Shown: positions 24,151 to 34,984 of the stretch, piece after piece
How positions within the stretch are numbered: the stretch's first letter is position 1
Layout of the letters: each line of letters starts with the position of its first letter
From: an uncultured Actinomycetes bacterium
Lineage (GTDB): Bacteria > Actinomycetota > Actinomycetes > Nanopelagicales > Nanopelagicaceae
Assembly (NCBI GenBank): GCA_903850565.1
Contig: CAINLV010000029.1
Location: forward strand, 1 to 64,000
DNA length: 64,000 bases
Direction of reading: 5' to 3'
The notes under the pieces: model-generated
What the model saw: the letters and a program-made list of their open reading frames with translations, nothing else
The model's database searches: none
Told to the model about the DNA's origin: nothing
Translations under genes and position numbers: made by a program

Positions 24151-25632
24151 CTAGAGCTTTGAATCCGCAAAAGTAGCAGTTAATCGGCTAGCCAATAAGA
24201 AGCGCGGATAGTTTTTACCCGAATACTCAATCTGCTCCAAATTAGGGGCGGAGAGTTGGTTAGGTGCCTGCAGGGCGCTAACCGCTTCGCCGAGGGAATA
24301 ACCCACCAAAGTTGCTGCCAACATGGCCGCACCCCTAGTCGTGGTTTCCTCGTCGTTATATCTGCGCAGATTGGTACCCAAGGTCCGAAGTCGAACAACA
24401 TCCCATCGTGGATCTTTTCCGGCATGACCTCCCAATTTAATAAGGGAAACACTCTGATTTAAACCTAACATAGCTACTTCGAGCACATGGCGTTCGCCAA
24501 AAGAGATCCCTTCTAAAACAGATCTGGCTAGATCGCAGTTTGTGTCTTCGGCATCTAGTCCGAAGAAGGATGCTCTGATATCGCTTCGCCAGATCGGAGC
24601 GCGCTCTCCGCTGAGGTAGGGGGTAAATACTGGAACGCTACTTTTTGTGGATTTCACCGCTTCATCAATAACCTGATCGGGGGTTAATCCATGTCGTTGA
24701 CCAAACCACGAAATTGCCGAACCGCTGGATTGCGTGGGTCCGTATAGAACGCTCAGTGGAGCACAGGACTTTGGAATTATGTAGAGATTCTTTCCATCCT
24801 GCGGAGGCGTTGGCGTGGAAATTCCAACGATTGCCGATGTTCCGGTAAATATGAAAGCCGACGGTTCAGTAAATACTCCTAGCGAAAGCATTCCGGACAT
24901 AGCATCCGACCACCCAGTACTTACTGGAATTCCAGTGTTGGGCAATCCGAATTGGAACGCTGCATATGGAGTTAATTTCCCACGCGAAACAAAGCCATCC
25001 AAAAGTTTAGGCATTTTCTCTGCTCCCCAGCCGACAAATTTCATCAGCGGAGTTATCACTTTCAAGCTTTCAACATTGCAAATGCCTTTAGTGGACCATG
25101 GATCGGAGATGGCTTCCCCGGTTAAATGAAATCCAATAAAGTCCTTCGGCTGTAGTAACCACCTGGTCTTGCGAATAATTTCGGGACGATGCCGACTCAA
25201 CCACAACAACTTTGCCGGACAAGCACTTGCTGACCAAGGAAGTGATGTACCAACTACATCCATGGGATTTCCAAATTTTTCTTCAAGATCTTTTGCTTCC
25301 TGAACCGGTCGATTATCTTGCCAAGTAAGAACTGGCGTCGTTGGTTCACCTTTCTCATCGATACAGACCAAAGAAGGAGTTTGCCCCGATAGACCAATGG
25401 ATACAACCCGCGACAACAAGCGTTGTTTCTTGGCTAGGACCTTCTTTAAGCCGTCCAGGTAATCCATTGCATTTTGTTCGGCTTTCCCACCCGGTCCATA
25501 TTCAGTGGATAACTTCGCTTCTGCCTTATCCACGACATTGCCATCGAGGGATAAGAAAAGCACCTTGAGGGAAGTGGTGCCGACATCGACACCTAACAAA
25601 AGTGAATCTGAAGAATGTGTTGAACTAGTCAA
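24151..25632 (-). CDS. FGGY-family carbohydrate kinase (xylulokinase-like)
   Basis: About 493 residues with both FGGY domains: the N-terminal ATPase motif GVDVGTTSLKVLF, LTWQDNRP (sugar-binding loop), the catalytic aspartate in TGWSDAMSG near 240, FTGTSAIVGI, and a C-terminal LGGHAGKDPRWDVVRLRTLGTNL adenine-binding region. It phosphorylates a ketose, polyol or similar compound with ATP. The frame opens at an ATG at 25656 without a ribosome binding site; the TTG at 25632 has GATGGAG 6 nt upstream and overlaps the dehydratase stop by 8 bp, so I prefer it. Xylulose is the best-known substrate of the nearest subgroup but is not proven here. Confidence 0.87.
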   Translation of the reverse strand: MTSSTHSSDSLLLGVDVGTTSLKVLFLSLDGNVVDKAEAKLSTEYGPGGKAEQNAMDYLDGLKKVLAKKQRLLSRVVSIGLSGQTPSLVCIDEKGEPTTPVLTWQDNRPVQEAKDLEEKFGNPMDVVGTSLPWSASACPAKLLWLSRHRPEIIRKTRWLLQPKDFIGFHLTGEAISDPWSTKGICNVESLKVITPLMKFVGWGAEKMPKLLDGFVSRGKLTPYAAFQFGLPNTGIPVSTGWSDAMSGMLSLGVFTEPSAFIFTGTSAIVGISTPTPPQDGKNLYIIPKSCAPLSVLYGPTQSSGSAISWFGQRHGLTPDQVIDEAVKSTKSSVPVFTPYLSGERAPIWRSDIRASFFGLDAEDTNCDLARSVLEGISFGERHVLEVAMLGLNQSVSLIKLGGHAGKDPRWDVVRLRTLGTNLRRYNDEETTTRGAAMLAATLVGYSLGEAVSALQAPNQLSAPNLEQIEYSGKNYPRFLLASRLTATFADSKL

Positions 25633-26833
25633 GCCGACTCCATCTGACAATCGCATCGCTACGCAATGGAACTTCTTTTCGCAATGAAATTCCTAATCCA
25701 GGTTTTTCGGTTGCCCAAATTTTGCCATCTTTATATGGCGGAAGTTCGGTAACAATTTCCTGATACCAACCGAAATAGTAAGCACGAACCATTTCCTGCA
25801 ATTCAATATTGGGTTGAGACATTCCTAGATGCACGCCCGCTGTAAGTACAACTGGACCGGTGCAATCGTGCGGTGCGACCGGCACCCCGTAAGTTGAGGC
25901 TAAAGCGGTCACTTTCACTGCCTCGGTTATTCCACCCACCCAACCGGGATCTAACATCAAGTGATCCACCGCGCCAGTTGATAGCAATCGCCAGTGATCC
26001 CAACGGGTGCCAGTCGTTTCACCAACCGTGAGAGGCGAATTTATCGATGCTTTAAATCGTTTTAAGGCTTCCGAACTTTCATGTTTGATCGGATCTTCCA
26101 CCCAGAATGGTTTGTATTGCTCCACTGCATTGGCAATTATCGTTGCAGCTGGCGTTGACCACAGGGCATGCAGTTCCAACATAATGTCGAAGTCAGGACC
26201 CGCAGCTGCGCGAGCGCGAGCAAAAAGTTCCACCGCTTCCCGTAAATCTGCGCCGGCGATTGTTTGACCACCAGATCTCATAGCGGCTTCATCAAAAGGC
26301 CAGATCTTCATGGCGGTAAAGCCCATATCTTTCAAACTAGCCACGAGTTCTTCGGGGGTATTCAAAAATCCAACTAAGTCTTCAAAATGCGCTCCGACAT
26401 GTTCGCCAATTTGCGCCTTACGGTTTCGATCAATATTGGAAGAACCTTTGCCATAACCGGGACCGGCACAAGTGTTATATGCGCGAATGGAATCGCGTAC
26501 CTTGCCACCAAGTAATTGATAAATAGGTTGCCCAGTCACCTGACCCAAGATGTCCCAGAGGGCAATATCGATGCTGGAAGCCGCCCGCACAGCCACAGCG
26601 GAGCCGGAAAAACCAATAAAGTCTTGGTGCAAGGTTTCATGTAGTGCGGTAATTTCTAACGGATTCTTTCCCAATAACCGCGGCGCAACGGTTTCGTGTA
26701 GAAAAGTTTCTACGGTTTCTACCCCGATGCAGTTTTCGCCTAAACCAATAATCCCTTCATCGGTATGGATCTGCAGAAATAGGATTGCTGGAAATTCCTT
26801 CAACCTAATGGTTTCAAGCCCAGTAACTTTCAT
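25625..26833 (-). CDS. Enolase-superfamily sugar-acid dehydratase (mandelate racemase group)
   Basis: The 402-residue protein has the MR/MLE layout: N-terminal capping domain (GIIGLGENCIGVETVETFLHE, SSIDIALWDILGQVTGQPIYQLLGG) and a barrel with KIWPFD near 200, metal ligands in MLELHALW, WVEDP and VGETTG, and the catalytic histidine in APHDCTGP. Members of this group dehydrate aldonic acids (galactonate, rhamnonate, fuconate and others) to 2-keto-3-deoxy acids using Mg2+. First gene of the operon with the FGGY kinase and YrdC-like protein. It is divergent from an Ldh_2 dehydrogenase across a 20-bp near-perfect palindrome. Confidence 0.88.
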   Translation of the reverse strand: MKVTGLETIRLKEFPAILFLQIHTDEGIIGLGENCIGVETVETFLHETVAPRLLGKNPLEITALHETLHQDFIGFSGSAVAVRAASSIDIALWDILGQVTGQPIYQLLGGKVRDSIRAYNTCAGPGYGKGSSNIDRNRKAQIGEHVGAHFEDLVGFLNTPEELVASLKDMGFTAMKIWPFDEAAMRSGGQTIAGADLREAVELFARARAAAGPDFDIMLELHALWSTPAATIIANAVEQYKPFWVEDPIKHESSEALKRFKASINSPLTVGETTGTRWDHWRLLSTGAVDHLMLDPGWVGGITEAVKVTALASTYGVPVAPHDCTGPVVLTAGVHLGMSQPNIELQEMVRAYYFGWYQEIVTELPPYKDGKIWATEKPGLGISLRKEVPLRSDAIVRWSRLD

Positions 26834-26921: not shown

Positions 26922-26944
26922 TGAATTTGGTCAAGAGGGAGCCC

Positions 26945-27973
26945 ATGACTTCGCCATCTGTTTTAAAAATTGCTCGCGCAGAGGTGGTTGCAGAAGCCAC
27001 CACAATTTTGGAGTTGAACGGCACACCTCACCATCTTGCAACAGAAGTTGCGGAGTCATTGGTGGGTGCTCAGGAAGTGGGCCATGCATCCCACGGGTTG
27101 ATCCGGCTTTTGGAATACACCAAATTTGTCGAACGTGGGCAGGTCATACCCAATGCCGAACCAACGATAGTTACTGACAATGCCAGCGCAATCGTTATTG
27201 ATGGCAATTGGGGCTGGGGCCAAATCGCCTGCAAATTGGCGGTGCAGTTGGCGGTAGAGCGGGCACAATCTCATGGCGTAATGGGAATAACCATTCGCTC
27301 CTGCAATCACATTGGCCGATTGGGTGAATATGTGGAACTGCTCGCAGAGCAAAAATTAGTTTCTTTAATGTGGTGCAATGCCGATCCTGCGGTAGCTGCC
27401 TTTGGTGGAACTCAACGATTACTGGGCACCAATCCTTTTGCCTCTGGCATACCCACCGATGAAAAGCCACTTGTTTTAGATTTCGCAACGTCCGCGAGCG
27501 CCGAAGGCAAGATCCGAGTTGCACGCGCCAATGGCCAGCAGGTAAAGCCTGGACAGATCATTGATAAAGAAGGTAAGCCCAGCACCAATCCCAATGATTT
27601 CTACGAAGGTGGAGCGCTCCTGCCCTTTGGTGAGCACAAAGGCTATGGAATGAGTTTGATGATCGAACTCTTGGGTGGTGCCCTTTCAGGCAATCACCCA
27701 TCCATCAACGACAATTATGTTGTTGGCAACGGTGCAGTTTTGCTGGTTATTAATCCCGCCAAATTTGTTCCATATGGTGAATTTCTTAGCGATGTGGTTC
27801 AAGCCTCCAGTCGAATTCGCCAATCCCCACCTTCGGATCCAGCATTTCCAGTGATGATGCCCGGGGATTTAGAAAACTCAATCAAAGCCAAGAATGGCGG
27901 GATGGTATTTGTAGACGAACCCATCTGGGCATCCATCATGTCATTGAAAGCCGAATTGCAAAGCTCCCACTAG
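26945..27973 (+). CDS. Malate/L-lactate dehydrogenase family (Ldh_2) oxidoreductase
   Basis: About 342 residues of the Ldh_2 family, which reduces 2-oxo acids or oxidises 2-hydroxy acids with NAD(P) using a fold unrelated to classical lactate dehydrogenase. Visible family features: VGAQEVGHASHGLIRL, the substrate-binding histidine in SCNHIGRLGEYV, GTNPFASGIPT, LDFATSASAEGKIRVAR, and FGEHKGYGMSLMIELLGG. Relatives include ureidoglycolate, 2,3-diketogulonate and sulfolactate dehydrogenases. A TTG at 26927 opens the frame, but the ATG at 26945 lies behind GAGGGAG and is chosen. Divergent from the dehydratase, shared operator. Confidence 0.87.
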   Translation: MTSPSVLKIARAEVVAEATTILELNGTPHHLATEVAESLVGAQEVGHASHGLIRLLEYTKFVERGQVIPNAEPTIVTDNASAIVIDGNWGWGQIACKLAVQLAVERAQSHGVMGITIRSCNHIGRLGEYVELLAEQKLVSLMWCNADPAVAAFGGTQRLLGTNPFASGIPTDEKPLVLDFATSASAEGKIRVARANGQQVKPGQIIDKEGKPSTNPNDFYEGGALLPFGEHKGYGMSLMIELLGGALSGNHPSINDNYVVGNGAVLLVINPAKFVPYGEFLSDVVQASSRIRQSPPSDPAFPVMMPGDLENSIKAKNGGMVFVDEPIWASIMSLKAELQSSH

Positions 27974-27981
27974 AAAGAGCG

Positions 27982-28701
27982 TTAAGACTTTTTCTTGAGT
28001 ACCAATGCAGCAGGCTCTGGAAAGTGCTTAGAAACTCTCTGGAAGCCGCGTTCGACGTGCTCATGAACAGATTTCTTGGCGTCCTCAACTTTTCCGCTCT
28101 TTATGACAGTGACCATTTTTTCGTGATCAGGTCCCCACTTAGGTAAGAAAACTTTATTTTCGGCATCGTTATCAGACCAGGTATAAATCAAGAATGCGTG
28201 AATTTGGGAACGCAGGATCTCCCATGATTTAAAGAGGCGCTCATGATGGGCAGACATGAAGAGTGCAGAATGGAATTCCAGGTCAATGCGACTTACCTCT
28301 TTGGGAGTTCGTTGCTTATTGGTCAATTTGGAATAATCTTTGAGGACTTTTTCCATCGCTGCGATATCTGCGCTAGTTGCGTTTCGGCAAGCCCATTCGA
28401 TTGCTAACTCTTCCAAAACGCGGCGCATTGAGTAAATTTCCTCAATGTCGTGGCGATCCCACGATGCAACCCGAGCACCACGATGGCGCTCAATTGTGAT
28501 TAAACCTTCGCGCTCCAGGCGCATCAAGGCTTCACGAACTGGGCCCCGACTGACGCCTAATTGGGCGGCTAATTCATCTTCAGCTAACCGGCGACCAGGT
28601 TCCAATTCGTGGCTAACAATGGCTTCGCGCAGATCATCCGTTACTTCATCGGCTAAAACGCGGCGCTTAGCCATTCCAAGTTTTGGCAATGCATCAGACA
28701 T
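27982..28701 (-). CDS. GntR-family transcriptional regulator, FCD (FadR) subfamily
   Basis: A 239-residue regulator. The N-terminal winged helix (about residues 15-80) shows LRRxI-type DDLREAIVSHELEPGRRLAEDELAAQLGVSRGPVREALMRLEREGL. The C-terminal FCD domain has metal-binding residues in IDLEFHSALF, PDHEKM and VHEHVERG, typical of regulators that sense organic acids. The ATG at 28701 follows GAGGTAGGAAAG; the longer frame from 28740 would run through the operator. TTGTTAACAA lies 26 bp upstream, indicating autoregulation. It is the last gene of the E1/lipoyl operon and the natural candidate to bind similar sites across the block. Confidence 0.9.
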   Translation of the reverse strand: MSDALPKLGMAKRRVLADEVTDDLREAIVSHELEPGRRLAEDELAAQLGVSRGPVREALMRLEREGLITIERHRGARVASWDRHDIEEIYSMRRVLEELAIEWACRNATSADIAAMEKVLKDYSKLTNKQRTPKEVSRIDLEFHSALFMSAHHERLFKSWEILRSQIHAFLIYTWSDNDAENKVFLPKWGPDHEKMVTVIKSGKVEDAKKSVHEHVERGFQRVSKHFPEPAALVLKKKS

Positions 28702-28726
28702 GGGCTTTCCTACCTCTGTTGGTTTG

Positions 28727-28736
28727 TTGTTAACAA
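28727..28736. promoter_or_regulatory. Operator-like palindrome in front of gntR
   Basis: TTGTTAACAA is a perfect 10-bp palindrome of the TTGTnnACAA type bound by many FCD-type GntR proteins. It sits between SDR 5 and the gntR start, suggesting autoregulation. Confidence 0.6.
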
Positions 28737-28766
28737 ACAACAGTACTCCTCAGCAAGCCCTGGCGC

Positions 28767-29576
28767 CTAGTAAGACCCGAGGGTACCTCCAGCGTTAAAC
28801 GCAAGGTTTCCACCATCTATGGGCAAGATCACACCAGTCACCATGGCAGCAGCATCGCTGGCTAAGAAGTGAACTCCGGCAGCAATATCTTCTGGTTCTG
28901 CGACTCGACCCAATGGAATTCCAGTCAGCAACTTGGCCAAGAGTTTGGCGCTAGCTTCTGGTTCTGACTCCACCCATTTACGCCAACCTGGTGTATTGAC
29001 CGAACAAGGTTGAATTGCATTAACGCGAATCCCGGCAGTTGCCCATTCAATCGCCAACTCCTTGGTCATCTGGATGACGCCACCTTTAGCCACGCTATAG
29101 GCGAAATTGCCGCGACCGATAGCAGAACTTCCAGCAATCGATGCAATATTTACAATGACACCTGGTTTGTTAGCAGCCATAACTGCTCTGGCGAAAGATC
29201 TGGCATTTAGGAAGTATCCAGTCAATGAAGTTTCGATGACGCCGTTCCACTCTTCCAGGCTGGTGTCTTGAGGTGGAACGTGAATTCCCGAAGCAGCATT
29301 ATTGATCAGAATATCTGGGGCCCCGACTTGGGAAACTATTTGGCTGAAAGTTGCCAGGACTTGGGATTCTTGGCTGGTGTCGCAGAGGAAACCAACTGCT
29401 GAAATGCCCATTCCTTCTAACTCTTTGACCGCGGTGTTGATTCCATCTTGATTGAAATCCGTCAAGACAATCTTCGCGCCAAAGCTTCCCAACAATCTAC
29501 AGACCGCCATACCAATTCCGCCGGCGCCACCTGTAACAACGACTGTCTTGTTATCGAGGTTATAAATATTCTTCAT
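28767..29576 (-). CDS. Short-chain dehydrogenase/reductase (SDR 5)
   Basis: A 269-residue SDR with TGGAGGIG near residues 15-22, INNAASG, the catalytic serine in NIASIAGSS, active-site YSVAKGG near 165, and VILPIDGGNLAFN at the end. It is 27 bp downstream of the E1 beta gene and 65 bp upstream of gntR on the same strand, in the operon starting with the D-2-hydroxyacid dehydrogenase. It probably interconverts a hydroxy and keto group in the same pathway; the substrate is unknown. Confidence 0.87.
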   Translation of the reverse strand: MKNIYNLDNKTVVVTGGAGGIGMAVCRLLGSFGAKIVLTDFNQDGINTAVKELEGMGISAVGFLCDTSQESQVLATFSQIVSQVGAPDILINNAASGIHVPPQDTSLEEWNGVIETSLTGYFLNARSFARAVMAANKPGVIVNIASIAGSSAIGRGNFAYSVAKGGVIQMTKELAIEWATAGIRVNAIQPCSVNTPGWRKWVESEPEASAKLLAKLLTGIPLGRVAEPEDIAAGVHFLASDAAAMVTGVILPIDGGNLAFNAGGTLGSY

Positions 29577-29603: not shown

Positions 29604-30602
29604 CTAATATTTCATGACCTTATGTACTGCTTCGATCATTCCAGCAACGGTTGGAATCGCGGCATCTGAGTGACGTGGGTTAGCGCTGATTGGCGCACGA
29701 ACTCCACCGACGCGAACGATTGGTCCTTTTAGATCAGAGTTGCAACGCTCGGTTGCAGAGGCGGCAATTTCGGCCGTCAGGGAACCGAACTTAGGTGCCT
29801 CATCGGCGATGACGACTCGGCCATACTTCTTGATTGCCGCATCAACGGCATCCTCATCCAATGGCCAGAGAGTCCGTAAATCAATAACTTCTACTTCGAT
29901 ACCTTCTTTAGCTAATTCATCAGCAGCTTTAAGCGCGGTAAAGAGCGTATAACTCCAGGTGATGATTGCAGCATCTTTTCCAGGGCGGACTGAATTAGCT
30001 TTGCCGAATGGAATTGGCTGGTGCCCAGTTGTAATTTCACTTCTGACACCCGAGAGTTTCTTATGCATTAAAAAGATAACTGGATCCGGGACTCGTAGCG
30101 CTGTTTTAATTAAACCTTTCACATCATTGGCACATGAAGGAATTGCTAAGGAGAGTCCTGGAGTGGATGCAAAGAAGGCTTCTAGCGCATTGGTGTGGTG
30201 TGCTCCGCCAAGTGCTACTCCAGAGGTTGCCCGAATTACCAGCGGTACTGGTTGCCCAAACATGAATCGAATCTTCGCTGCTTGATTGATGATTTCATCC
30301 ATGGCTCCGAAAGAGAAGTCGATGAAGTTCAAATCAATGATTGGGTGAAGTCCGTACATGGCAGCGCCGAGGCCGGCTGCGACCATGGCGGCTTCGGAGA
30401 TTGGCGAATCTTTAACTCTACTTTCGCCAAATTCCTGAGCGATGCCTTTGACTTGTGCAAAGTGCCCCCCTCTTTCCACCAAGTCAGTTCCCAGAATAAA
30501 AATATCTGGGTTGGTGGTCATTTCTTCGCGAACGCCTTGTTGGAAGGCTTCGGAATAACTTGGATGAGAAACGCGTGTAGGTGTATCGGTAGTAGTGCTC
30601 AT
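29604..30602 (-). CDS. 2-oxoacid dehydrogenase E1 component, beta subunit (AcoB/PdhB-like)
   Basis: The 332-residue protein has the E1-beta layout: an N-terminal pyrimidine-binding domain (EAFQQGVREEMTTNPDIFILGTDL, DSPISEAAMVAAGLGAAMYGLHPI) and a C-terminal transketolase domain (AAIITWSYTLFTALKAADELAKEGIEVEVIDLRTLWPLD). It pairs with E1 alpha encoded 2 bp upstream to decarboxylate a 2-oxo acid with thiamine diphosphate and transfer the acyl or hydroxyalkyl group to a lipoyl domain. The conserved glutamate that activates the cofactor lies in DSPISEAAM. Confidence 0.92.
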   Translation of the reverse strand: MSTTTDTPTRVSHPSYSEAFQQGVREEMTTNPDIFILGTDLVERGGHFAQVKGIAQEFGESRVKDSPISEAAMVAAGLGAAMYGLHPIIDLNFIDFSFGAMDEIINQAAKIRFMFGQPVPLVIRATSGVALGGAHHTNALEAFFASTPGLSLAIPSCANDVKGLIKTALRVPDPVIFLMHKKLSGVRSEITTGHQPIPFGKANSVRPGKDAAIITWSYTLFTALKAADELAKEGIEVEVIDLRTLWPLDEDAVDAAIKKYGRVVIADEAPKFGSLTAEIAASATERCNSDLKGPIVRVGGVRAPISANPRHSDAAIPTVAGMIEAVHKVMKY

Positions 30603-30604
30603 AA

Positions 30605-31579
30605 TTATTTAGCCCCCAATAGCCCAGAATCGACACCATCTGTCAGAGTAGAAAGATCCGGTTCCGGTGAACTTTCCGCGAATGCCACCGCAGCTTCGAT
30701 TTCTGCATGAACTGAGGCTTTCATCGAATCTAGATCTGCTTGGGACATATCTCCCGTGGACAGTAGATAGGCGGTGAAACGATCAATTGGATCTTTGTGT
30801 TCGCGCCAATCTGCGATCTCCTCTTGGGTTCGATATTGGCCACGCTCGCCGACGTTGTGTCCGTTGTAGCGGTAAGTAAGTGCATTAATAAAGGTTGGAC
30901 CTTCACCGGCCACTGCTCGTTCTCGGGCTTCGGCGGTGTACTTCTGAACTTCGAGCACATCATTTCCATCGATATTAAAGGAAGGCAAACCAAAGCCCGA
31001 TGCTCGTTTCGCAGGATCATTTCCGCCAGTTACCCGGCCAACAAATGTCTCCACTGCATACTGATTGTTATCAACTACCAAAATAAATGGGAGCTTGTAG
31101 ATCACGGCCATATTGAGGGATTCCCAAGTTCGGCCGGTGTTTAAGCCGCCATCGCCAACAAAGCCGACTGAAACATTCTTGTCGCCGCGTTGATGAATAC
31201 CCATTGCTGCACCCATGGCGATGCCAACGCCAGCGCCTACGATTCCGTTTCCACCAAAGTGGCCTCGTTTGAAATCTCCTAAGTGCATAGAGGCACCGCG
31301 ACCTTTGGAGACACCTGTTGCCTTCGTGAACAACTCCGCCATGATTTCGTTAGGCGTGAATCCCTTTGCCAAAGTGTGGTGATGAGAACGGTGAGTGGTA
31401 GCAATAACGTCATCAGCAGCGAGTGCCGACATCACGCCAACTGCCACCGCTTCTTGTCCAGAAGAGTTATGCATTCCACCGGGAACTTTTCCGCGAAGGG
31501 TTAGTTTGTCGGCGGTCTCTTCGAATTCGCGAATAACCAACATCTCGCGAAGCAGGGACTGTAGATCGGTATAGGCCAT
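30605..31579 (-). CDS. 2-oxoacid dehydrogenase E1 component, alpha subunit (AcoA/PdhA-like)
   Basis: The 324-residue protein has the thiamine-diphosphate motif GDGGLNTG (residues 142-149) running to VVDNN at 168-172, the GGMHNSSGQEAVAVG entry and the THRSHHHTLAKG stretch of acetoin/pyruvate dehydrogenase E1 alpha. The length matches AcoA-type subunits better than PDH E1 alpha from classical complexes. The gene lies between the lipoyl protein (3 bp) and E1 beta (2 bp), so all three are probably made together. No E2 acyltransferase or E3 is encoded nearby. Confidence 0.92.
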   Translation of the reverse strand: MAYTDLQSLLREMLVIREFEETADKLTLRGKVPGGMHNSSGQEAVAVGVMSALAADDVIATTHRSHHHTLAKGFTPNEIMAELFTKATGVSKGRGASMHLGDFKRGHFGGNGIVGAGVGIAMGAAMGIHQRGDKNVSVGFVGDGGLNTGRTWESLNMAVIYKLPFILVVDNNQYAVETFVGRVTGGNDPAKRASGFGLPSFNIDGNDVLEVQKYTAEARERAVAGEGPTFINALTYRYNGHNVGERGQYRTQEEIADWREHKDPIDRFTAYLLSTGDMSQADLDSMKASVHAEIEAAVAFAESSPEPDLSTLTDGVDSGLLGAK

Positions 31580-31582
31580 CTG

Positions 31583-31831
31583 TTACTCCACCTCTCCTGG
31601 TGCCAGGACAACAGAGATCGTGTTGCCGACTGGCACTTCATCATTGGGTTGATAGCGATGCTTTCCGAGAACGCCACCAGTTTCTGCCGTCAAATCCAAC
31701 GTGGTTTTATCTGTTTCGATGACAGCAATAACATCCCCGGCGGCTACAGGGTCGCCGGGATTCTTTAACCATTCCAATAAAACTGCATTGTCCATTGCCA
31801 TTCCCAGTGCCGGGACAAAAACTTCTTCCAT
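31583..31831 (-). CDS. Stand-alone lipoyl-domain protein
   Basis: An 82-residue protein that is only a biotinyl/lipoyl domain: FVPALGMAMDNAVLLEWL, GDPVAAGDVIAVIETDKTTLD and a symmetrical second half. K42 in the ETDKTT turn is the expected lipoylation site; the DK context marks lipoyl rather than biotin (which has MKM). In standard complexes this domain is fused to a 2-oxoacid acyltransferase (E2); here nothing follows it. It may serve as a mobile acyl or aldehyde carrier for the neighbouring E1, borrowing E2/E3 encoded elsewhere. The ATG lies behind GAGGAAAG. Confidence 0.88.
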   Translation of the reverse strand: MEEVFVPALGMAMDNAVLLEWLKNPGDPVAAGDVIAVIETDKTTLDLTAETGGVLGKHRYQPNDEVPVGNTISVVLAPGEVE

Positions 31832-31870: not shown

Positions 31871-32842
31871 TTAAAACGGTCCAGCCGCAAAATTTCCGTG
31901 GTTTATTCCATTGCTATTTACATAAGTGAAAACATCCCGAATAGTCCACTCGATCAAGCGAGGTCCAGAACTTTCCGAATACCAAGCCATATGTGGCGAG
32001 AGAATTAGGTTGGGAACATTTCGAAGAGGTGAATCACTTGGAAGAGGTTCGGCTTGAAACACATCTAATCCGGCGCCCGAGATCTGTCCGCTGGTTAATC
32101 CATCGGCAAGAGCTGCTTCATCGATCAAACCACCTCTGGAAACATTCACGATGATCGAGCCCTTAGGCATCTTCGCAATCTGCGCCGCACCAATCATGTG
32201 GTGTGTTGATGGAAGGTATGGAGCGTGCAAAGTGATCATCTGGCATTGTTCTAATAATTCATCCAGCGTGTCAACCATTTCAATCCCATAAAGATTTACT
32301 GCGGCTGCAGGATCAAATCCGACAACTTTTTTGGCAAAGGGAAGCAATTTTGAAATTGCAGATTGACCGATACGACCACAACCAATTACGCCAATGGTGC
32401 AATCTTGGATCGAGTGCACCTTGGTCATATCTGTTGCGCCGCCCCAGCCCTTCTCCCTCGTCCAGGTATTGGCGGCGAACAGTCCACGGTGCAATGCCAG
32501 CATCATGGCAACGGCGTGATTGGAAACTTCATGAATTGCATAGAGTGGCTGATTAACAACGGCGATATTGCGACTCTTGGCATATTCGACATCGATGGTA
32601 TCTAAACCCACGCCAGCTCTTCCGATAATTTTTACGGTCGGAGCAAAAGCATCGATGATTGCTGGAGTCATTCGGTGCAAGGAAATCATTATTGCCGAAC
32701 AACCTTGCGTTAACTTTGAAACCTCTTCGGGAGTACCTGCTGGGCCTTCGACTAGTTCTACGCCGAGCTCTTTGGCCACTGGATATATCCAGGAGCCATC
32801 AGCCACGGTCCCATTCACCAATGCAATTCGCGTCGAATTCAC
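31871..32842 (-). CDS. D-isomer-specific 2-hydroxyacid dehydrogenase
   Basis: The 323-residue NAD(P)-dependent enzyme shows GRAGVGLDTIDVEYA near 78-92, the Rossmann motif GVIGCGRIGQSAISKLLPF near 155, the NVSRGGLIDEAALADGL stretch with the catalytic arginine, the glutamate in GLDVFQAEPL and the catalytic histidine in LSPHMAWYS. It reduces 2-oxo acids to D-2-hydroxy acids or the reverse. First gene of the operon leading through lipoyl, E1 alpha/beta and SDR 5 to gntR. It has an AGGGAAAGGGATC ribosome binding site and an operator-like palindrome just upstream. Confidence 0.9.
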   Translation of the reverse strand: MNSTRIALVNGTVADGSWIYPVAKELGVELVEGPAGTPEEVSKLTQGCSAIMISLHRMTPAIIDAFAPTVKIIGRAGVGLDTIDVEYAKSRNIAVVNQPLYAIHEVSNHAVAMMLALHRGLFAANTWTREKGWGGATDMTKVHSIQDCTIGVIGCGRIGQSAISKLLPFAKKVVGFDPAAAVNLYGIEMVDTLDELLEQCQMITLHAPYLPSTHHMIGAAQIAKMPKGSIIVNVSRGGLIDEAALADGLTSGQISGAGLDVFQAEPLPSDSPLRNVPNLILSPHMAWYSESSGPRLIEWTIRDVFTYVNSNGINHGNFAAGPF

Positions 32843-32875
32843 ATGATCCCTTTCCCTGGGTTTTGAATGGGTTTA

Positions 32876-32885
32876 CTGTATACAA
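32876..32885. promoter_or_regulatory. Operator-like site CTGTATACAA
   Basis: CTGTATACAA differs by one base from the perfect palindrome TTGTATACAA, a common FCD-type GntR target. It lies between the divergent D-2-hydroxyacid dehydrogenase (34 bp away) and FAH hydrolase genes, about 12 bp from the second CCGTATACCCT element. Confidence 0.5.
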
Positions 32886-32896
32886 TTCACAACATT

Positions 32897-32946: not shown

Positions 32947-33606
32947 ATGCCGCAAAATCTGCCATTGCCTAGGCCTGGGAAAGTTATCGCCGTTGGTTTG
33001 AACTACAAAGATCACGCTGCTGAAGCTGGAGTTCCACTGCCACTTGCTCCGGTCTTGTTCACTAAATTCACCACCAGTCTGACCCACCATGAAGCCCCCA
33101 TCGTCATCCCTCACGGAATAACTCAGGTCGACTGGGAGGCCGAATTAGCGGTAGTTATTGGAAAGACGGCCAGTCGAGTAAACATTGAAGACGCTATGGA
33201 TTACGTCGCTGGCTACACCTGTATGAACGATGTAACTGACCGAGAGGCCCAGGGCAAAGATGGCCAATGGGTGCGCTCCAAGTCCTATGACACCTTTGGC
33301 CCGATTGGCCCAGTAGTAATTCCAGCATCTGCCATTGGCGATCCGCACGCACTCAAGATTGAGGCTCGCCTTAACGGCAAGACCATGCAATCTAGTAACA
33401 CCAGCAATCTGATTTTCCGGGTTGACTACTTAATTGCTTACATCAGCCGAACTATTACCTTGGAGGCCGGTGACGTCATTACTACTGGTACACCTCACGG
33501 AGTCGGTACCTTCTGGAATCCGCCGATTTTCATGAAGCCTGGCGATGTAATTGAAGTGGAAATCGAAAAGATCGGAATCCTTCGTAATCATGTTGTGGCG
33601 GAGTAG
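32947..33606 (+). CDS. Fumarylacetoacetate hydrolase (FAH) family protein
   Basis: The 219-residue protein has the FAH-family core: VGLNYKDHAAEAG at residues 18-30, metal ligands in VDWEAELAVVIGK, YTCMNDVTDRE, KSYDTFGPIGP and TGTPHGVG. Such enzymes cleave or rearrange diketo acids (for example 2,4-diketo-3-deoxy-L-rhamnonate or acylpyruvates) with Mg2+ or Mn2+. A perfect AAGGAGG lies 7 nt before the ATG; a longer frame from 32659 lies antisense to the neighbouring gene and is not used. First gene of a tight operon with SDR 6, aldolase, LldD-like enzyme and ABM protein, matching the hydrolytic end of the non-phosphorylating rhamnonate/fuconate route. Confidence 0.9.
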   Translation: MPQNLPLPRPGKVIAVGLNYKDHAAEAGVPLPLAPVLFTKFTTSLTHHEAPIVIPHGITQVDWEAELAVVIGKTASRVNIEDAMDYVAGYTCMNDVTDREAQGKDGQWVRSKSYDTFGPIGPVVIPASAIGDPHALKIEARLNGKTMQSSNTSNLIFRVDYLIAYISRTITLEAGDVITTGTPHGVGTFWNPPIFMKPGDVIEVEIEKIGILRNHVVAE

Positions 33607-33608
33607 TT

Positions 33609-34376
33609 ATGGCCTTTCCAGGATCTGACCGAAAGTTAGTACTGCTCACTGGAGCAGCCTCTGGGATTGGTCGGGCAACCTGCCTTCGACTGGTCGCCGA
33701 AGGATGCGATCTTTTTATTATTGACCGAGATGGTCCTGGTTTGGAAGAGACGAAAAAACGCGCGGAAGCGTTAGGCGCCACTGTAAAAACTCATCAGATT
33801 GATCTTTCTGAACCAGCTGCAGTGTTGGAAGAGATGCAGCCAATCATTGACCAATTCGAAATCGACTATTTAGTCAACGATGCTGGGCTTGGATTCGCTC
33901 GGACCACGGAACAAACCACCTTGGCTGAATGGGATCTGACCTTCAACGTCAATATCACCGCCACTTTCCTCTTCTGCAAAATGGTCTTGCCGCAAATGTT
34001 GGCCCGTGGCGCAGGTGCCATTGTTAACGTCGCTTCGGCTGGTGCCATTGTTGGTTTGAAAAACCGCGTGGCATATTGCGCATCGAAGGCAGCAGTCGTT
34101 GGCCTCACCCGTTGTATTGCGGCCGACCATGCGACTCAAGGCATTCGGATTAACGCCATTGCCCCGGGAACAGTCGGCTCAGAGTGGATTGAGAAGATTC
34201 TTTCCGATGTTCCAGATCCAGTAGCCACCAGAAAGATGATGGAAGCCCGCCAGTTGGATGGCAAAATGGGAACCCCAGAGGAAATTGCCGAAGGAATTAA
34301 TTTCTTGCTCAGTCCTGCGGCTCGTTTTGTGAATGGATCGGTCTTCGTCATGGATGGTGGGTTAACTGCTGTATGA
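33609..34376 (+). CDS. Short-chain dehydrogenase/reductase (SDR 6)
   Basis: A 255-residue SDR with TGAASGIG near residues 15-22, VNDAGLG in the usual NNAG place, active-site YCASKAAVVGL near 156, and FVMDGGLTAV at the end. It starts 3 bp after the FAH gene and its stop overlaps the aldolase start (ATGA). In the L-rhamnonate and L-fuconate routes an SDR oxidises the 2-keto-3-deoxy acid to the 2,4-diketo acid cut by a FAH-family hydrolase, so this pairing is suggestive. The Asn-to-Asp change in NNAG is worth noting. Confidence 0.88.
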   Translation: MAFPGSDRKLVLLTGAASGIGRATCLRLVAEGCDLFIIDRDGPGLEETKKRAEALGATVKTHQIDLSEPAAVLEEMQPIIDQFEIDYLVNDAGLGFARTTEQTTLAEWDLTFNVNITATFLFCKMVLPQMLARGAGAIVNVASAGAIVGLKNRVAYCASKAAVVGLTRCIAADHATQGIRINAIAPGTVGSEWIEKILSDVPDPVATRKMMEARQLDGKMGTPEEIAEGINFLLSPAARFVNGSVFVMDGGLTAV

Positions 34377-34984
34377 GTGAGTCAAAATACAATTCTGGAG
34401 TAGTCGCCGTTATCCGCACGGAGAACCCACAACATGCATTAAACCTAGGCCGGGCATTTGCCGACACTGCCATTTCGGCCATTGAAGTCACCATGACTGT
34501 TCCGGATGCGTTGCGCGTCATTCAGACTTTGGTGGATGAAGGAATCGAAAGAGTGGGTGCGGGAACCGTTCGAACTATTGAACAAGTCAAAGAACTTAAG
34601 CGCATAGGTGGAACTTTTGTTGTCTCTCCGCATCTGGAAGAAGCAATCGTGAAGACCGCTGTAGACCTAGGTTTAGCAGTTACTCCCGGGACTATGACTC
34701 CTTCGGAAATTGTCCAGGCGATAAATTGGGGAGCCACCTCACAAAAGGTTTTTCCTGTTTCACTTGTTGGTGGTCAAGCATTCGTGAAAGCGGTCTTAGA
34801 GCCATTGCCCGATGCCCGATTAGTAGTTTCTGGTGGCGTCCAACCTGAAGAAGTCCAAGATTATCTAAAACTAGGCTGCGTCGGCGTCTGCATGGGCGGA
34901 GCATTATGGACTCCTGAAATCGCGGACACTGGAGATATCGCTGCGATTCGTGCCTACGCATTAACTGCTCTATCTAGAATGTAA
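34373..34984 (+). CDS. KDPG/KHG-type aldolase (Eda family)
   Basis: The 203-residue class I aldolase has the full Eda active site: E38 in IEVTMTVP, T65 in GAGTV and the Schiff-base K125 in SQKVFP. It also has PGTMTPSEIVQA and the phosphate-site region VVSGGVQPE ... GVCMGGALW. It cleaves 2-keto-3-deoxy-(phospho)aldonates or 4-hydroxy-2-oxoglutarate to pyruvate and an aldehyde. Placed between SDR 6 (4-bp overlap) and the LldD-like gene (2-bp gap), it offers a second exit for the same keto-deoxy acid. Whether it needs a phosphorylated substrate cannot be read here. Confidence 0.9.
   Translation: MSESKYNSGVVAVIRTENPQHALNLGRAFADTAISAIEVTMTVPDALRVIQTLVDEGIERVGAGTVRTIEQVKELKRIGGTFVVSPHLEEAIVKTAVDLGLAVTPGTMTPSEIVQAINWGATSQKVFPVSLVGGQAFVKAVLEPLPDARLVVSGGVQPEEVQDYLKLGCVGVCMGGALWTPEIADTGDIAAIRAYALTALSRM

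Follow-up and report, generated by a model that had tools for sequence, protein, structure and literature searches.

A conserved E1 gene pair with a free-standing lipoyl protein and no linked E2 in an actinobacterial gene cluster

The window, meaning the whole 64,000-nucleotide stretch of DNA analysed here, covers the initial 64 kb of contig C29 in genome G000 (2.03 Mb, 115 contigs, 94.7% complete). It carries a gene pair for the alpha and beta subunits of a ThDP-dependent E1, preceded by a gene for a small lipoyl-domain protein (LIP). According to the window ORFs and Pfam, the minus-strand transcription order is D-2-hydroxyacid dehydrogenase (2HDH), LIP, E1alpha, E1beta, SDR oxidoreductase and GntR/FCD regulator. 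The features of the cluster are:

25625..26833, minus strand: enolase-superfamily (MR/MLE) sugar-acid dehydratase (Pfam MR_MLE_C, 185.8 bits; conserved in orthologous loci)
26927..27973, plus strand: Ldh_2, malate/L-lactate dehydrogenase type (Pfam Ldh_2, 322 bits; conserved in most orthologous loci)
27982..28740, minus strand: GntR/FCD regulator, last gene of the unit (Pfam GntR 71.2 bits, FCD 77.9 bits; position conserved)
28767..29576, minus strand: SDR oxidoreductase after E1beta (Pfam adh_short_C2; position conserved)
29604..30602, minus strand: E1beta, 332 aa (Pfam Transket_pyr 110.7 bits, Transketolase_C 115 bits)
30605..31579, minus strand: E1alpha, ThDP-binding subunit, 324 aa (Pfam E1_dh, 255.6 bits)
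31583..31831, minus strand: LIP, free-standing lipoyl-domain protein, 82 aa (Pfam Biotin_lipoyl; PDB lipoyl domains; orthologues)
31706..31708, minus strand: codon of K42, the predicted lipoylated lysine, in an ETDK motif (invariant in free-standing LIPs)
31871..32842, minus strand: 2HDH, first gene of the unit (Pfam 2-Hacid_dh_C, 183.7 bits; place kept in orthologous loci)
32871..32886, plus strand: candidate operator GTTTACTGTATACAAT, palindrome TGTATACA, in the divergent 2HDH/FAH promoter region (recurrence in orthologous loci)
32947..33606, plus strand: FAH-family hydrolase, in the divergent half of the cluster (Pfam FAA_hydrolase, 256.6 bits)
33609..34376, plus strand: SDR oxidoreductase 2 (ORF; conserved beside FAH)
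34373..34984, plus strand: KDPG/KHG-type aldolase (ORF, named by sequence; conserved in orthologous loci)

The intergenic gaps are short, with 39 bp between 2HDH and LIP, 3 bp between LIP and E1alpha, 2 bp between E1alpha and E1beta, and then 27 and 26 bp. A sequence-only reading of the window had described both E1 subunits with an 82-residue protein consisting of a lipoyl domain alone, in an operon lacking E2 and E3. The ORFs are real, their coordinates are exact and their Pfam families are confirmed, and neither an E2 nor an E3 gene was found among the ORFs and Pfam matches of the window cluster. The 16-bp candidate operator occurs at the same place in seven of ten orthologous loci, where its flanks have diverged; this recurrence in a divergent promoter region suggests a regulated unit.

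The Biotin_lipoyl match covers LIP residues 3-73 (51.7 bits against a cut-off of 22.1) and is the sole Pfam match of the protein, which has no recognisable subunit-binding or acyltransferase domain. LIP also matches lipoyl domains in the PDB (E 4e-14). A modifiable lysine is present at the sequence level, as K42 within ETDK is predicted to be lipoylated and is invariant in 23 free-standing LIPs from several lineages. In a structure model built from a shallow alignment (mean pLDDT 62, low-to-moderate confidence), which served only to examine the turn holding K42, this lysine lies between two predicted strands. The two E1 subunits are equally recognisable: E1alpha matches human PDH E1alpha in the PDB (E 6e-55) and E1beta a Thermus 2-oxoacid dehydrogenase beta subunit (E 2e-66). 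The GDG-(26)-NN motif of E1alpha (G142-G144, N171-N172), its R64 and H241, and E70 and H136 of E1beta are invariant among orthologues, and the cofactor residues of both subunits align to those of human and bacterial PDH E1. Judged by these residues, the proteins of the window unit look functional.

Twelve orthologous loci (L018-L029), all from actinobacterial MAGs, were obtained by scanning genome contigs with LIP. LIP-E1alpha-E1beta is retained without an E2 in all twelve (the E1alpha of L024 is read in two pieces), and the fixed three-gene unit that the sequence-only reading had proposed looking for in relatives is thus present. The loci that extend far enough also retain 2HDH, the SDR, the GntR regulator, the divergent FAH/SDR/KDPG-aldolase arm, the MR/MLE dehydratase and, except in L022, Ldh_2. 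The twelve LIP orthologues are 82-83 aa long and share 79-84% protein identity with the window LIP, with dN of 0.11-0.18 and saturated synonymous sites. By this measure, LIP is under purifying selection. The arrangement is not a product of chance, because twelve independent MAG loci keep the gene order at this level of protein identity and synonymous saturation. A dedicated E2 acyltransferase core, including an AcoC-type E2 in the operon, is absent from the unit in the window and in all twelve orthologous loci, and across these loci Pfam identified neither a conserved acyltransferase nor a conserved thioesterase in the unit.

A further gene was observed in some of these genomes. It encodes an AceE-like protein of ~800 aa (L021:503-2869; G036:C33:16358-18664; G000:C64:3960-6305) that scores 204 bits to aceE, far below the cut-off. 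The gene adjoins the KDPG aldolase in three relatives and lies elsewhere in the host genome; its product is perhaps a second ThDP enzyme tied to the window pathway.

The dehydratase, FAH hydrolase, KDPG aldolase and SDRs of the window cluster suggest sugar-acid catabolism yielding pyruvate. Pyruvate is a product of KDPG aldolase and also of the FAH-type hydrolysis of diketo-deoxy acids. The best NCBIfam match of the FAH hydrolase is 2,4-didehydro-3-deoxy-L-rhamnonate hydrolase (234 bits, below the cut-off of 500) and that of the MR/MLE dehydratase is galactonate dehydratase, also below cut-off. Both scores fall short of the curated thresholds and so point to a sugar acid in general rather than to a particular one. 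One orthologous locus, L028, additionally encodes a glycerate kinase. Locus L178, which belongs to a different family, combines KDPG aldolase, KDG kinase, D-2-hydroxyacid dehydrogenase, SDR, E1alpha/beta and LIP genes whose products share only 29-43% identity with the window set; the window aldolase is 35% identical to the Pfam-confirmed aldolase of this locus. A phosphate acetyltransferase gene comes after LIP in L159 and points to acetyl-CoA, and in loci of the L154/L156 type a free LIP occurs with a CitE-like lyase, MR/MLE enzymes and SDRs. The conversion of pyruvate to acetyl-CoA is favoured because pyruvate and acyl-CoA are the common denominators of these free-LIP contexts. Pyruvate is only a tentative choice of E1 substrate, with a likelihood somewhat short of even; the D-2-hydroxyacid dehydrogenase in first place counts against it, as this enzyme also fits another 2-oxo acid such as hydroxypyruvate. 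Hydroxypyruvate or an acyloin is a possible substrate.

Free-standing LIPs occur well beyond the window type. Among 113 E1alpha matches, from loci sampled mainly by similarity to window proteins and hence with a query bias, 55 have an E2 within 4.2 kb, 36 a free LIP, 4 a lipoyl domain on a larger chain and 18 neither. There are 30 distinct free-LIP loci besides the window among E1alpha relatives in Actinomycetota, a count that excludes duplicates (L139-L141), double counts (L024, L178) and L075, which scored as free LIP but whose ORF runs to the contig end. Apart from the twelve orthologous loci, about 18 actinobacterial loci pair E1alpha/beta with a free LIP in other contexts. The E2-less unit is real, as the sequence-only reading held, and in view of these counts less exceptional than it implied. 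In the E1alpha tree, the window clade (12 rows) consists of free-LIP loci with full support. The free-LIP label requires 11 changes on this tree, at least three of them forced by well-supported branches, and six on a concatenated E1alpha+E1beta tree, at least four of them forced, of which one may stem from the discarded L075. The concatenated tree groups the window clade with L178 (support 95) and with a wider set of 11 rows, all with free LIP (support 89). Both are quick trees in which the window clade has a long stem. On this phylogenetic evidence, free LIP beside E1 arose several times. L218 represents a further type, a sugar ABC/FGGY/SIS operon in which LIP adjoins a fused E1 of 820 aa.

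E2-type acyltransferase domains are encoded at four places in the host genome G000:

C107: PDH-type E2p, 565 aa, two lipoyl domains, adjoining the lipoamide dehydrogenase (LPD) gene
C29, 123 kb: E2, 417 aa, adjoining a fused E1
C52: Kgd fusion
C59, 30943-32037 (L096:8943-10037): pseudo-E2, 364 aa, beside an E1 pair

Two of the G000 E2s have an intact HRxxDG. The C59 pseudo-E2 carries DLRYCDF in place of DHRxxDG, a His to Leu change, and, like its relatives, lacks segments of the catalytic domain. An E2 elsewhere in the genome that belongs to the window E1 was considered and rejected, since the candidates are a PDH-type E2 beside LPD, an E2 beside a fused E1, a Kgd fusion and a pseudo-E2 beside its own E1 pair, and none is unpaired. 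G000 also has a second free-LIP unit (C106:5432-7742; L095), with E1alpha/beta and a 92-aa lipoyl protein. Three E1alpha/beta sets of this genome thus lack an intact E2 of their own, as the window and C106 sets have a free LIP and the C59 set a pseudo-E2. In G000, an LPD gene lies beside E2p. LipA is present with LipB adjoining, the latter an ORF read by eye, as was done for LipB in two genomes. Three other genomes with the window-type unit (G011, G025, G036) each encode exactly one lipoyl-bearing E2 (435-439 aa) beside the sole LPD, together with one OdhA/Kgd-type fusion, LipA and a housekeeping AceE. E3 is therefore available in the cell, outside the unit, in all four genomes. In the nine tested free-LIP genomes outside the window family, E2 was found in nine and a lipoamide-dehydrogenase-family match also in nine, over the cut-off in eight. 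No genome with a free LIP was found to lack E2 or E3, and E2 was present in all 20 other genomes searched for it, which include G016, where the free LIP lies away from E1, and G002, which has only the pseudo-E2 type.

Some features of these genomes stand apart from the window unit. The neighbours of the C106 unit are amidohydrolases, SDRs, an MR/MLE enzyme and a taurine/nitrate-type ABC transporter. The pseudo-E2 is conserved in relatives L144, L145 and L146 as a 360-379 aa protein that combines a lipoyl domain with a shortened catalytic domain, and it adjoins an E1alpha/beta pair and PTS EI/glucitol-type PTS genes; the rhizobial plasmid relatives L101 and L104 have a full E2. The housekeeping AceE of G000 is divided between C72 and C30, with profile residues 5-444 on one contig and 450-881 on the other; a break in the assembly seems a better account of this than a defective gene.

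We propose that the window encodes a pathway-dedicated E1 with a diffusible lipoyl carrier that would unload on the housekeeping E2p and E3, an explanation to which we give about an even chance. The E1alpha/beta would decarboxylate a 2-oxo acid from the sugar-acid pathway, most likely pyruvate, and reductively acylate LIP on K42. Acyl-LIP would then diffuse to the housekeeping PDH core, where CoA would receive the acyl group from the E2p acyltransferase, and reoxidation of the carrier would fall to the single lipoamide dehydrogenase. LIP would thereby act as the H protein does in glycine cleavage, as a swinging arm without a tether. The observed basis consists of gene content, conservation, intact cofactor motifs and the lack of a linked E2 or E3, together with the finding that the tested genomes encode E2p, E3 and LipA. 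From it we infer LIP lipoylation, the use of E2p and E3 and an acyl-CoA product; E2p/E3 as the partner would be a choice by elimination, since no E2 is linked to the unit. A free lipoyl domain can sustain turnover between E1, an E2 catalytic domain and E3 in vitro without a covalent link (PMC5986005). Its kcat/Km is 0.124e6 M-1 s-1 as against 1.07e6 M-1 s-1 for tethered E2o (PMC5986005), so that the trans reaction is ~9-fold less efficient, which counts against borrowing. E2p may also prefer its own lipoyl domains, to which the window LIP is only 28-29% identical. The actinobacterial OdhA takes lipoyl groups of E2p in trans, and the actinobacterial E2p is reduced to a trimer (PMC10415282). As free lipoyl domains work in trans and OdhA uses those of E2p in the same manner, a detached carrier would be mechanistically reasonable by analogy, above all in Actinomycetota. 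Gene content is compatible with a sharing hub of the PDH-ODH type, with acyl and electron transfer via a shared E2p/E3. More speculatively, and at less than even odds, Actinomycetota might run a distributed, plug-in 2-oxoacid dehydrogenase system, in which several pathway-specific E1s, each with a detached lipoyl carrier or a lipoyl-bearing pseudo-E2, discharge on one small E2p/E3 hub by diffusion and not by tethered channelling.

Other explanations of the unit need to be weighed against a carrier that borrows E2p and E3. That LIP is the truncated remnant of a lost E2 would agree with its sequence, which is that of a bare N-terminal lipoyl domain, but its length is constant in twelve loci, dN is far below dS, only 3 bp separate it from E1alpha and no E2 debris is found. 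Because its length is always 82-83 aa, its lipoyl lysine is invariant and it is under purifying selection, LIP is not regarded as a decaying E2, and the remnant explanation is hardly credible. The sequence-only reading had named such a remnant, or an E2/E3 pair belonging to the window E1, as evidence that would speak against it, and neither was found. An unmodified or merely auxiliary LIP, with E1alpha/beta docking on E2p, or on the 417-aa E2 at 123 kb of C29, and using the lipoyl domains of that E2, is improbable. The two G000 E2s with intact motifs could accommodate such docking, whereas LIP always adjoins E1, neither K42 nor its turn varies, a free LIP has evolved next to E1 on several occasions, and the second E2 is absent from G011, G025 and G036.

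The E1 may instead be of the acyloin- or ketose-cleaving, acetoin-dehydrogenase type, splitting an alpha-hydroxyketone so that LIP would take only the two-electron oxidation and the acyl group. Its E1alpha has the motif THRSHHH, presumably associated with AcoA, where the two other non-fused E1alpha of the genome have THRGHGH; the best NCBIfam match of LIP is the acetoin-dehydrogenase E2 (59 bits), and other free-LIP units occur with an FGGY kinase, a SIS domain and sugar ABC transporters (L218, L107). Against these points, the window cluster is built on the conversion of sugar acids to 2-oxo acids, not on ketoses, and E1alpha scores best against PDH E1alpha, both in the PDB and with TIGR03182 (below cut-off), so that this type is unlikely, if worth keeping in view. 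Rather less likely still is a transfer of the acyl group from LIP to an acceptor other than CoA and E2, or hydrolysis of the thioester, so that the unit would make a free acid or some other acyl conjugate with no E2 involved. A linked E2 is indeed absent from all ~30 free-LIP loci, and a lipoyl protein outside dehydrogenase complexes is known in LbpA of sulfur oxidation (PMC6067878), but the unit holds no recognised conserved acyltransferase or thioesterase, every genome tested has E2 and E3, and phosphate acetyltransferase follows LIP in L159. The interpretation of the sequence-only reading is partly supported: it had offered a different acceptor or a borrowed general E2/E3 as possibilities, and genome content favours borrowing, as one or more E2s and an E3-type enzyme occur in every tested free-LIP genome.

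The window unit shares homologous ThDP-dependent E1alpha/beta subunits, a homologous lipoyl domain and adjoining genes with the pyruvate, acetoin and branched-chain 2-oxoacid dehydrogenase complexes, but it is without an E2 acyltransferase, subunit-binding domain and E3, and its lipoyl domain is a separate protein. As the dedicated acyltransferase core is missing, we do not count the unit among the PDH or acetoin dehydrogenase complexes despite its homology to 2-oxoacid dehydrogenases. What the window encodes is a genuine and conserved E1 module that lacks E2 and has a putative carrier of its own. The actinobacterial hybrid PDH-ODH likewise involves a lipoyl group in trans and a shared E2p/E3 hub (PMC10415282), a sharing that would apply to the window unit by inference; OdhA contains an E2o domain of its own and lacks a carrier, whereas the window E1 has its own carrier and no acyltransferase. 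GcvH, too, is a small soluble lipoyl carrier between enzymes and is reoxidised by a shared lipoamide dehydrogenase, as proposed for LIP. LIP differs in belonging to the E2-type Biotin_lipoyl family and in having E1 as partner instead of the P and T proteins; it has no GcvH family match in Pfam, and no P or T protein gene occurs in the window cluster. LbpA of sHdr sulfur oxidation is similarly a single-lipoyl-domain protein with a dedicated enzyme partner, but it resembles GcvH and accompanies hdr genes (PMC6067878). LIP does neither, and no linked hdr genes were found among the cluster genes of the window and orthologous loci. In the split E2 of roseobacter plasmids (Phaeobacter L103, Rhodobacteraceae L108), the lipoyl protein and acyltransferase are also separate chains beside E1alpha/beta, with the acyltransferase encoded in the same operon, unlike in the window unit. 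In these two loci (L103 being a Phaeobacter inhibens plasmid), the lipoyl-bearing chain measures 428-431 aa and the acyltransferase, which has no lipoyl domain, 295-337 aa; their neighbours are E1alpha/beta and succinate-semialdehyde dehydrogenase. In the open-licence literature, the only literature searched, no description of an E1alpha/beta pair with a free lipoyl protein turned up, which is weak evidence of absence.

2-Oxoacid dehydrogenases are a textbook case of tethered swinging arms and substrate channelling in giant cores. If the proposed carrier function is correct, a conserved natural arm carried by its own protein would demonstrate that the tether can be dispensed with in vivo, and a detached arm would fit the small trimeric E2p reported for actinobacteria. 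How the E2p lipoyl domains serve several sites has been called an open question (PMC10415282), and how one lipoyl set serves several enzymes would become directly testable with a few small purified proteins. Recognition of the unit would also help to correct the annotation of many actinobacterial 'acetoin/pyruvate dehydrogenase' gene pairs.

Other arrangements of E1 and lipoyl genes were also observed. Family f33 loci, among them L192, L195, L199 and L202, encode E1alpha/beta without a lipoyl gene within ~4 kb, and four loci of this family have two E1beta genes per E1alpha; these units are possibly carboligases or users of a distant carrier. A free 79-aa lipoyl protein with no adjoining E1 is encoded in L219 (4642-4881) and L220 (4892-5131), in the former beside an SDR, a 2-methylfumaryl-CoA isomerase-like CoA transferase, and MaoC-like and CitE-like genes.
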